Below, piece by piece: positions 18,512 through 28,501 of a stretch of 64,000 bases of DNA. Every line of letters begins with the position of its first letter. The stretch's first letter is position 1. The DNA comes from Streptomyces venezuelae (GTDB taxonomy: Bacteria; Actinomycetota; Actinomycetes; Streptomycetales; Streptomycetaceae). The stretch spans positions 7,998,001-8,062,000 of the forward strand of contig NZ_CP029192.1 of NCBI RefSeq assembly GCF_008642315.1, read 5' to 3'. The notes below the pieces were generated by a model. The model had not been told where the DNA came from. It made no database searches and worked only from the letters and a program-made list of their open reading frames with translations. The translations under genes and the position numbers were made by a program.

Positions 18512-21500
18512 TTGAGCACCGCAAGCGTCTCCTCGGACGGCCTGCTTCCCCTGACCGGCGCCCAGTTGGGCATCTGGAACGCCCAACGCCTGGAGCCGGA
18601 CTCGCCGTACTACGTGGTCGGCGACGTCGTCGAGATATCCGGCGGCGAACCCGTCGACGTGGACGCGCTCGTCGAGGCCGTCCGGGCGACCACCGAGGAA
18701 GCCGAGACGCTGCGGCTGCGCGTGTACGACACCCCGGACGGGCCGCGCCAGACCGTCGCCGAGGACCCCGTCGCCGCACCCGAGGTGATCGACGTCAGCG
18801 GCGACGCCGACCCGGTGGCCGCCGCCCACGCGCTCGTCGACGCCGAACGGGCACGGACGGGCGCCGCCTGCCGGGGAATGGTCGACCGGCCGCTGTACGC
18901 GCGGACCGTCATCAAACTCTCCGACCGTGAGGTCTGGTACACCCAGCTCGGCCACCACCTGATCTTCGACGGCTACACCGCCGCGATGCTCGCCCGCCGC
19001 ACCGCCGCCCGCTACACCGCCCTCGTCAACGGCACCGAGCCCCGCAAGTCGACGTTCGGCGGGTTCGCCGCCCTCGTCGAGGCCGACCGCGCCTACCGCG
19101 AGAGCGACCGCTTCACCGACGACCGCGCGTACTGGGTCGAGCGGTTCACCCCGCTGCCCGAACTCGGCGAGCATGCCGAGGCCTCCGGCGGCGCGCCCGA
19201 CAGCACGCTGACCGCCCGCGCCGCCGTCACCCCCGAGGAGGCGTCCGCACTCCGCGCGTTCGCCGACGCCGAGGGCGTCACCTGGGGCGAGGCGCTCATC
19301 GCCTGCTACGCCGCCTTCCTGCACCGCATGCTGGGCCGCACCGACGTCGTCTTCGCCCTGCCGCTCATGTGCCGCACGGGCTCGGTCGAGCTGCGCACCC
19401 CCGCCATGGCCGTCAACGTGCTGCCGCTGCGCGTCACCGTGCGGCCGGGCGACGCACTGGGCGAGTTGAGCCGCCGCGTCGCCACCGCCATGAAGGAGAT
19501 GCGCGACCACCAGCGCTACCGCGGCGAGGACCTGCCCCGCGACCTCGGCGTGCCCGGCGCGGGCGCGCTCCTGCACGGACGCGGCATCAACCTCAAGGCC
19601 TTCGACCTCGCCCTCGACTTCGCCGGTGCCAGTGGCGTGATGCGCAACGTCGCGGGCGGACCGCCCGAGGACATGGGCCTGAGCGTCCTGCCGGCCCGCG
19701 ACGGGGGACTGCTGCTCGGCTTCGAGGTCGACGCAGCCTCCCATGACCAGGCCTCCGTGGACGGTCTCCTCTCCGGCCTGCGCGCCCTGCTCGCCGGGCT
19801 GATCGGCGGCCGGACCGTCGGCCGGATCCCGCTCGCCGGCAGCGACCTGGACACCGAGCGCCTCCTCGCCGCCTGGTGCCCGCCCGCCCTGCCCGGCGCA
19901 CCCGCCGACATCCCGGCCGCGTTCGACGCGATGGTCGCCGCCGACCCCGGGCACACCGCCCTGGTGTGCGGCGACGACCGGCTGACCGCGGCCGAACTCG
20001 CCGACCGCGTGCACCGGGTCGCCCGCGCCCTGCGCGCCCGCGCCATCGGAACCGACGACGTCGTGGCCCTCGCGCTGCCCCGCTCCGCCGACTCGGTCGT
20101 CGCCCTCCTCGCCGTACTCGACGCGGGCGCCGCCTTCCTGCCCCTGGACACCGCGTACCCCACCGAGCGGCTGCGCGGCCTCATCGACGACACCCGGCCC
20201 GCGCTGGTGCTCACGGCCGCCGACGACATCGACGGAGTGCCGTGGAGCACGCTGCTCGACGAGGCCGCCGCCCTCTCCGGCGCCCCGCTGACCGTCGACG
20301 AACTGGCCGCGCCCCGCCACCCCGAGCACCTCGCCTACGTCATCCACACCTCCGGATCGACCGGCCGCCCCAAGGGCGTGCTCGGCCGGACCGGCGGTCT
20401 CGCCGCGCTCCTGCACCACCAGCGCTCCACGGTCGTCGCCGAGGCAGAGGGCGCCGCGGGCAGGCCGCTGCACGTCGCCCACACCTACTCGTTCGCCTTC
20501 GACTCCGCGTTCGACCACCTGGTCTGGCTGCTGTGCGGGCACCGCCTCCACGTGTACGACACCGAGACAGCCCGCGACGCCGACGCCCTGCTCGCCGCGT
20601 ACGCCCGCGACGCCATCGACATCGTCGACACCACGCCGTCCATGGCCGCGCCGCTGATCGACGGCGGCCTCCTCGACCGCAGGCCCACGCTCCTCGTCCT
20701 CGGCGGCGAGGCCACCCCGCCCGCACTGTGGCGGCGCGTCGCCGACTCCGGCATCACCGCACGCAACATGTACGGCCCGACCGAGGCCACCGTCGACGCC
20801 ACCACCGCCCGCGTCGACGGCGGCGAGCCGACCATCGGCCACCCCCTCGCGGGCACCCGCGTCTACGTCCTCGACAGCGCGCTGCAGCCCGTCTCGCACG
20901 GCCGCACCGGCGAGCTGTACCTGGCGGGCCCGCACCTCGCCCGCGGCTACCTCGGCAGGCCCGGAGCGACCGCCGACCGGTTCGTCGCCGATCCCTTCGG
21001 CCCGCCCGGCGCCCGCATGTACCGCACCGGCGACCTCGCCCGCTGGATACCGGGCCGCGGCCTCACCTACCTGGGCCGCGGCGACGGACAGGTCAAGATC
21101 CGCGGCCACCGCGTGGAGACCGGCGAGGTCGAGGCCGCGCTCGGCGCCGTGCCCGGCGTCACCGCGGCCGCCGCCACCGTCCGCTCCTCCCGCCTCATCG
21201 GCTACGTCGTGTCCGCCTCCGTCACCGGCGAGGCGGTCCGCGCCGAACTGGCCGCGCGGCTGCCCGAGCACATGGTGCCCGCGGCCGTGGTGGTCCTCGA
21301 CGAACTGCCCGTCACCACCAACGGCAAGCTCGACCGGGCCGCCCTGCCCGCGCCCGCGTCCTCCGGCGGCGGCCGCGAGGCGGGCACCGAGCGGGAACGC
21401 CTGCTCTGTGCCGTCCTCGCCGACGTCTTCGAGGTCGAACGGGTCGGTGTCGACGACGACTTCTTCTCCCTCGGCGGCGACAGCATCACCGCGATCACCA

Positions 21501-28501: not shown

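Follow-up and report, generated by a model that had tools for sequence, protein, structure and literature searches.

A nonribosomal peptide synthetase (NRPS) gene in a 64-kb stretch of a Streptomyces genome (G000:C1:7998001-8062000 of 8,942,078 bases, hereafter the window) very probably encodes the assembly line for the siderophore mirubactin A or a very close analogue. The gene lies in a run of eight genes on the plus strand, encoding in order an aryl carrier protein (ArCP), a siderophore-interacting FAD reductase (SIP), a siderophore-binding protein (SBP), two FecCD-type permeases, an ATPase, the NRPS and a major facilitator superfamily (MFS) exporter. It adds a new member, with its genes split over the chromosome, to the mirubactin family described from Actinosynnema mirum and Streptomyces drozdowiczii. 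At the level of sequence we could establish the domain order of the NRPS, the gene set of the block, its linkage to 2,3-dihydroxybenzoate (DHB) genes in relatives, its orthology with A. mirum and the iron-box-like sites that it shares with other loci.

By Pfam and motif order, the 3,329-residue NRPS reads C-A-T-E-C-A-T-E-C (C, condensation; A, adenylation; T, thiolation; E, epimerization), as a reading made earlier from the sequence only had it. The frame opens with a TTG codon 5 bases 3' of AAGGAGA. Pfam returned five Condensation-superfamily stretches (770 bits in total) and two matches each for AMP-binding, AMP-binding_C and PP-binding, and no other family at E ≤ 0.001, hence neither a thioesterase (TE) nor a reductase family. 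The core motifs follow each other as HHLIFDG (residue 148), TSGSTGRPKG of A1 (613), LGGDSI of T1 (987), HHLAMDG (1164), HHALLDG (1615), TSGTTGRPKG of A2 (2080), IGGDSI of T2 (2455), HHLVADG (2635) and HHVLSDG (3043), and 280 residues remain C-terminal to the last of them. The whole protein scored 1007 bits against MxcG and 916 bits against EntF, both under the equivalog cut-offs, with the best-matching stretches at residues 11-1022 and 12-1023, respectively, which correspond to C1-A1-T1. This resemblance, together with DHB genes beside the ArCP gene in 9/12 Pseudonocardiaceae regions and 5/9 Streptomyces genomes, bears out the expectation that C1 is an EntF-like starter domain taking an aryl group, DHB, from a detached carrier.

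In a tree of 44 domains, for which the program warned of long branches, 18 E domains, including E1, E2 and those of coelichelin synthetases, formed one group (100/100), and E1 and E2 also carry the E-type motifs EGHGRE and ESHGRP, so the two D-residues predicted earlier stand. The C1, C2 and C3 domains formed one group each (all 100/100), and C3 was placed with C2 and two coelichelin C domains (97/88). C3 was therefore rejected as an E domain, the label printed for it in PMC9120177.

The closest characterized counterpart is found in genome G325, which we take to be A. mirum DSM 43827, the source of mirubactin. The region of this CHARACTERISED relative reads dhbA-dhbC-dhbE-isochorismatase-ArCP-SIP-SBP-FecCD-FecCD-ATPase-NRPS-MFS-DAHP synthase in one run; of these, the eight central genes are present in the window in unchanged order, while the dhb set that directly precedes the ArCP gene in A. 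mirum lies 2.83 Mb away in the window genome. The A. mirum NRPS (3,434 residues) has the identical nine-domain order and likewise no TE. The strict A2 pattern was unmatched in it, yet A2 aligns at 73%, and identities for the other domains were 70% (C1), 67% (A1), 71% (T1), 65% (E1), 67% (C2), 66% (T2), 58% (E2) and 57% (C3). The specificity pockets agree at 8/9 positions each, with DSDDVGMVD in the window and DSDDVGAVD in A. mirum for A1, and DVWNVGAIN and DVWNVGAVN for A2. In PMC9120177 the mirubactin domains of A. mirum are given as C-A-PCP-E, C-A-PCP-E, E, A, KR, in which the last E corresponds, according to our tree, to a C domain here. The earlier statements that no characterized pathway has this domain string and that the product may be new thus do not hold: the A. 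mirum mirubactin synthetase has the string, and the two enzymes share 57-73% identity per domain.

A second known producer, Streptomyces drozdowiczii MDA8-470, makes mirubactin A, observed by liquid chromatography-mass spectrometry at m/z 605.2 and, in the ferric form, at 658.1 (PMC9609785). According to the same paper, its mirubactin-like cluster borders the coelichelin cluster, with homologues of mrbA, C and D placed ∼130 kb away, a separation like that of the dhb set of the window genome, in which coelichelin, however, is 5.63 Mb from the block. The layout published for S. drozdowiczii is that of genome G171 (77% identity to the window over the last 930 NRPS residues), which has dhbE 129 kb from the ArCP gene and coelichelin-type genes after the MFS gene.

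To assign the A domains, pockets were read by alignment to GrsA; position 239 of A1, where MAFFT left a gap, was read by eye. The acidic residues of the A1 pocket fit a basic substrate, probably Arg, and A2 would belong to the N5-hydroxyornithine class, with the N5-formylated form (hfOrn) as the likely substrate. The same genome encodes a coelichelin synthetase as a separate gene at 2.36 Mb with the codes DINYWGGIGK, DFWNIGMVHK and DMWNLGLINK, presumably for hfOrn, Thr and hydroxyornithine. The A2 pocket shares 7/10 positions with the third of these codes and 5/10 with the Thr-type code, and the window NRPS lacks the three A domains of a coelichelin-type enzyme. A literal search of papers for five pocket strings found none of them.

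These assignments agree with the published masses. Two DHB, Arg and formyl-hydroxyornithine minus three water, as a linear acid, give calculated values of 605.220 (apo) and 658.132 (ferric), and with building blocks deduced from the text of PMC9609785 the published mirubactin A masses fit the linear free acid and not a ring. Mirubactin C, whose formula that source prints as C18H25O8N4, contains two D-ornithine moieties and corresponds to mirubactin A minus one DHB and minus the guanidine group; we calculated C18H26N4O8 for one DHB, Orn and formyl-hydroxyornithine, with eight double-bond equivalents as published. The hydroxyornithine-like A2 pocket made it attractive to consider that C3 cyclizes the chain to a cyclic hydroxyornithine, but the MH+ of 559.2 calculated for two DHB, Arg and a cyclized hydroxyornithine does not match the published 605.2. 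A trilactone formed by C3 from a Thr-like residue was discarded on the pocket comparison and the published masses. Of the product proposed in the sequence-only reading, N-aryl-D-aa1-D-aa2, the aryl start and the two D-residues are retained, whereas its novelty and its release as an amide, ester or cyclic form are not supported, the published masses fitting a linear free acid.

We propose that DHB would be supplied by DhbA, DhbC and the isochorismatase encoded 2.83 Mb away and loaded by DhbE on the detached ArCP. C1 would join DHB to Arg on T1, and E1 would invert the Arg. hfOrn would come from the coelichelin-cluster hydroxylase and formyltransferase, with the MbtH protein of that cluster as a likely helper, and C2 and E2 would add and invert this residue to give DHB-D-Arg-D-hfOrn on T2. 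A second DHB would be placed on the Arg guanidine and the chain would leave as a free acid, the two catechols and the hydroxamate making a hexadentate Fe(III) ligand. Export could then proceed through the MFS protein, uptake through the binding protein, the two FecCD permeases and the ATPase, and iron release through the SIP. The siderophore role assumed in the earlier reading is supported by this gene set and by the DHB linkage in relatives.

No DHB-pathway gene was found in the 64-kb window, the matches to dhbE at 28-29% being the A domains of the NRPS itself. A single dhbE and a single dhbA in the genome score above the NCBIfam cut-offs; both lie in a cassette (locus L015) with dhbA at 330 bits, dhbC at 503 bits (over the cut-off), dhbE at 764 bits and a 214-residue isochorismatase without a carrier domain; what is missing from this remote cassette is precisely the carrier supplied by the block. 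Since dhbE is too common for its co-occurrence to prove a link, being present in 33/50 NRPS-negative genomes, we dropped that argument and used physical linkage. DHB genes stand upstream of the ArCP gene in 5/9 Streptomyces genomes in which this side is readable. The dhb cassette runs straight into the ArCP gene in G073 and is present whole, in divergent orientation, in G075; in G171 and G116 dhbC alone is found at the ArCP gene, and the remote cassettes of these genomes lack dhbC. G133 has at this place a dhbC (a 425-codon open frame, 53% alike) and a dhbE fragment, with complete sets elsewhere; the fragment (L112:954-1607) covers the last 218 of 531 residues at 80% likeness, and complete dhbE genes lie on other contigs. 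At the ArCP gene of G149, G019, G155 and the window genome, no dhb genes were found. Streptomyces genomes therefore display stages of the split, from the complete run (G075, G073) through one gene left (G171, G116) to a gene and a fragment (G133) and to full separation in the window genome, G149, G019 and G155.

Beside the remote cassette we observed a short Rho-like gene (L015:17796-19043, G000:C1 at ∼5.178 Mb; paralog_Rho2 491 bits, below the cut-off), and a 70-71% alike Rho gene also follows the dhb-ArCP sets in L118 and L119; this neighbor may hint at the origin of the dhb cassette. G133 carries a second catechol cluster (L113:6842-14191) with dhbA-C-E-isochorismatase-ArCP and the start of an NRPS, whose ArCP and C1 are 51% and 44% alike, and which probably makes a different catechol siderophore. 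In the window, an isochorismatase-family frame on the minus strand (33165-33899, 110.6 bits) overlaps a longer glutamate-synthase frame; it is probably unconnected with the siderophore, since the dhb isochorismatase query had no match of at least 60 bits in the window.

The hydroxyornithine genes are likewise encoded elsewhere in the genome. The window genome has a hydroxylase and formyltransferase pair in its coelichelin cluster (L179), and both genes occur in 11/12 Streptomyces carriers of the NRPS, the window genome included; in G133 they lie on separate contigs and the hydroxylase match crosses one TGA. We suggest that the coelichelin-cluster pair serves this NRPS as well. In 4/12 carriers (G171, G155, G116 and G147) the MFS gene is followed, at a distance of 1-4 kb, by paired hydroxylase (PF13434) and formyltransferase (PF00551) genes, Pfam confirmation having been obtained for the pairs of G116 and the window genome. 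In G171 and G155 these two genes form the border of a coelichelin-type cluster. In G116 and G147 an MbtH-like gene follows the hydroxylase, and the search for a coelichelin synthetase gave a best match of 42% in G116 and none at E ≤ 1e-150 in G147. The window genome thus encodes, outside the window, both the DHB genes and the ornithine hydroxylase and formyltransferase looked for in such a cluster. Judging from gene positions, the hfOrn supply lies outside the mirubactin cluster in A. mirum too.

Conservation delimits the block and indicates that the NRPS is not a chance assembly, since 11 of 294 other genomes of the genus match its last 930 residues at 77-91% and the next best match reaches 47%. 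The whole block is present in the same order in seven of these 11 relatives (G019, G149, G075, G155, G116, G133 and G171), the only ones in which it is readable whole, as the contig breaks off inside the NRPS gene in G081, G213, G073 and G147; the open frame of G147 begins 585 bases from the contig start, and a second contig of G073 carries the genes from ArCP to ATPase. Outside the block, the compared stretches have different genes, which sets its ends, except in G081 and for a 61% alike alcohol dehydrogenase in G073. The NRPS frame was examined in 49 named loci, and is complete and unbroken in 39; the 10 cut or broken ones were left out of the motif comparison. Counted from where the last HHxxxDG match begins, all 39 frames stop after 277-337 residues, and by the patterns used none of them has a T or TE-like motif behind it. 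Exceptions to the motif order are L139 (no first HH match) and L151 (no first A match), and 12 frames read HHxxxDA in E2.

We also searched 249 genomes from the family to which an Amycolatopsis locus belongs (Pseudonocardiaceae); 39 of them gave a match at E ≤ 1e-160, and the regions of 12 of these were read. The MFS gene lies 3' of the NRPS gene in 11/12 of these and in 11/11 Streptomyces orthologues. The dhb genes stand directly 5' of the ArCP gene in the nine regions mentioned above, with the stretches of G497 and G514 beginning within the cassette. In G366 and G414, whose stretches do not extend far enough upstream of the ArCP gene, dhbA is found after the MFS gene, and G306 has a different NRPS (48% alike) without C1 and without the block. 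G497 has no ATPase match before the NRPS, and G514 has none for the binding protein, permeases and ATPase. A DAHP synthase gene follows the MFS gene in 8/12 Pseudonocardiaceae regions and in 14 of the 49 named loci (10 Amycolatopsis and 4 Streptomyces, e.g., L158:14102-15232); beside the block it is an extra shikimate feed for DHB. In the window, the 3' neighbor is a catalase gene and not DAHP synthase.

Regulation also appears to connect the three loci. With a 19-bp iron-box consensus of the DmdR/IdeR type, only the two sites at 13433 and 14659 were found in the 64 kb at four or fewer mismatches, and none in five mononucleotide shuffles. At five or fewer mismatches, the overlapping pair 13428/13433 and 14659 were again alone, with none in 10 shuffles. 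L015 has a site with one mismatch before dhbA (17471) and another with three mismatches at 17532, and the coelichelin loci L179 and L017 have several each. Because such sites occur at all three, the block, the dhb cassette and the coelichelin loci look co-regulated, as far as the consensus can tell; the main G133 stretch (L066) has no site at four mismatches.

Several points weigh against assigning mirubactin A to this strain. The identity of the product is a prediction from sequence and from the published product of relatives, the equation of G325 with A. mirum DSM 43827 is an assignment of ours, and the A1 and A2 substrates were assigned from pocket residues and specificity codes. Of all domains, C3 is the least alike its A. 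mirum counterpart (57%), and the A. mirum hfOrn genes lie at 6.04 and 1.22 Mb, outside the cluster, with no positional tie. The closest relative, G081 (91%), has no dhbE at E ≤ 1e-100 and dhbC-like matches of just 33-37%, in an assembly of 700 contigs that may be incomplete. Although dhbE is present in 10/11 carriers, it is no marker on its own given its frequency in NRPS-negative genomes.

The block leaves one catalytic domain, C3, for two steps, namely the attachment of the second DHB to the guanidine and the release of the chain as an acid, and no other acyltransferase or TE was found in the block in genera from Streptomyces to Actinosynnema. Our search of open-licence papers turned up no account of what the terminal C domain does in mirubactin synthesis. 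The grouping of C3 with C2 suggests that its donor would be the D-residue chain on T2, which favors a role in release and speaks against a DHB donor; we therefore tentatively prefer that C3 releases the chain with water as the acceptor, while holding this at somewhat less than an even chance. It is possible, but rather doubtful, that C3 instead forms the acylguanidine by moving a second DHB from the detached ArCP to the D-Arg guanidine nitrogen once DHB-D-Arg-D-hfOrn is on T2, and a simple alternative of the same low standing is that C1 works twice to make it. Other routes to the acylguanidine and to release are further alternatives.

Transfer of the chain by C3 to a soluble amine such as putrescine or agmatine, a reaction proposed for malleobactin and demonstrated for glidonin, would give a new amide, and addition of putrescine by the C domain of a terminal module is documented (PMC10587159). 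In favor of this, C3 is conserved as a C domain and no module follows it in the block, yet the A. mirum orthologue ends in the same C domain and the mass published for mirubactin A agrees with a free acid; moreover, no amine-making gene was seen kept beside the block among the neighbor genes compared, which makes this outcome improbable. A cluster that is decaying or silent, with its DHB supply separated and its terminal domain a remnant, appears more improbable still: DHB genes have been moved or reduced in some genomes (the dhbE fragment in G133, none found in G081) and the NRPS frame is broken in L137 and L150, but frames are complete in 39/49 named loci with most others cut by contig ends, the C3 HHxxxDG is kept in 46/46 aligned rows, the A2 pocket is identical in 42/46, iron-box-like sites are kept in front of the parts, and mirubactin A is made by a strain whose genes are split in the same way (PMC9609785). 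The least probable of these outcomes is that the chain moves from C3 to an A-T module encoded separately, at another place in the genome, to give a longer product. C3 does group with C2 and coelichelin C domains, which accept carrier-bound residues, and other NRPS genes are numerous in the genome (a total of 49 Condensation matches), but no A-T gene was seen traveling with the block in the regions read, and the published product needs two amino acids only. Neither a further A-T module nor a TE nor an aryl-AMP ligase belonging to the block was found in the window.

Other siderophore systems share parts of this arrangement. Chlorocatechelins A and B from Streptomyces sp. have the mirubactin scaffold, with the acylguanidine named in the paper title, and a single chlorine distinguishes chlorocatechelin B from mirubactin C (PMC9609785); their catechols are chlorinated, whereas the eight block genes include no halogenase. 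A FAD gene downstream of the block, at 35462-36868, was rejected as a halogenase of the chlorocatechelin type, given 26.5 bits for Trp_halogenase versus 43.8 bits for FAD_binding_3, and among the 11 relatives only G081 has it in the compared stretch. Fuscachelin and cellulochelin begin, as here, with a catechol and a D-basic residue, but are longer chains with Gly, Ser and hydroxyornithine built over more than one NRPS and closed as a macrolactone, and the second cellulochelin NRPS ends in a TE, unlike the window NRPS (PMC8097023, PMC13251462). In glidonin and malleobactin a C domain and not a TE carries out the final acyl transfer, as could be the case here, but that domain attaches putrescine (PMC10587159), while the mirubactin A mass fits a free acid. 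Catechol trilactones of the griseobactin and enterobactin type are released by a C-terminal TE, a family that Pfam did not find in the window NRPS.

The features of the block are listed in Table 1. The SIP start was placed from its 4-base overlap with the ArCP stop. An antisense open frame of 3,357 codons (18467-28540, minus strand) spans the whole NRPS gene; such a frame can arise from high G+C at third positions, and it was not treated as a gene.

Table 1. Positions of the block genes, NRPS domains and iron-box-like sites in the window
Feature	Position	Strand	Basis
Iron-box-like palindrome upstream of ArCP gene, 3 mismatches	13433..13451	.	DmdR/IdeR-type 19-bp consensus
Stand-alone ArCP, 79 aa	13504..13743	+	PF00550 47.8 bits; after isochorismatase gene in A. 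mirum (G325) and G073
SIP (FAD reductase)	13740..14591	+	PF04954 131 bits, PF08021 92 bits
Second iron-box-like palindrome, upstream of SBP gene, 3 mismatches	14659..14677	.	DmdR/IdeR-type 19-bp consensus
Ferric-siderophore binding lipoprotein (SBP)	14695..15690	+	PF01497 33 bits
FecCD-type permease 1, start approximate	15690..16712	+	PF01032 275 bits
FecCD-type permease 2, start probable (longer frame opens 16541)	16709..17728	+	PF01032 244 bits
ABC ATPase	17725..18510	+	PF00005 106 bits
Mirubactin-type NRPS, 3329 aa	18512..28501	+	open reading frame, Pfam, motif order, comparison with G325 NRPS
C1, starter C (DHB onto residue 1)	18512..19897	+	HHLIFDG; EntF/MxcG-like; own tree group 100/100
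A1, pocket DSDDVGMVD(K), basic residue, probably Arg	19898..21397	+	pocket residues
T1	21398..21586	+	LGGDSI
E1	21614..22951	+	HHLAMDG, EGHGRE; tree
C2	22964..24265	+	HHALLDG; groups with coelichelin C domains in tree
A2, pocket DVWNVGAIN(K), N5-hydroxyornithine class, probably formylated form	24284..25786	+	pocket residues
T2	25793..25996	+	IGGDSI
E2	26009..27181	+	HHLVADG, ESHGRP; tree
C3, terminal condensation domain	27185..28498	+	HHVLSDG; groups with C2 in tree; also in G325 NRPS
MFS exporter (EmrB-like), last block gene	28498..29916	+	PF07690 194 bits; TIGR00711 303 bits, above cut-off

Our analysis settles the product class of a split siderophore cluster. Rule-based miners can miss such clusters because the chelator genes lie elsewhere, and 21 false negatives of this split-chelator type have been reported (PMC12971057). 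The question of how an acylguanidine siderophore gains its second catechol and leaves the enzyme without a TE is narrowed to one conserved domain. If C3 does acylate the guanidine, C domains would gain guanidine as an acceptor, and products of the mirubactin and chlorocatechelin type would owe their second catechol to this domain.

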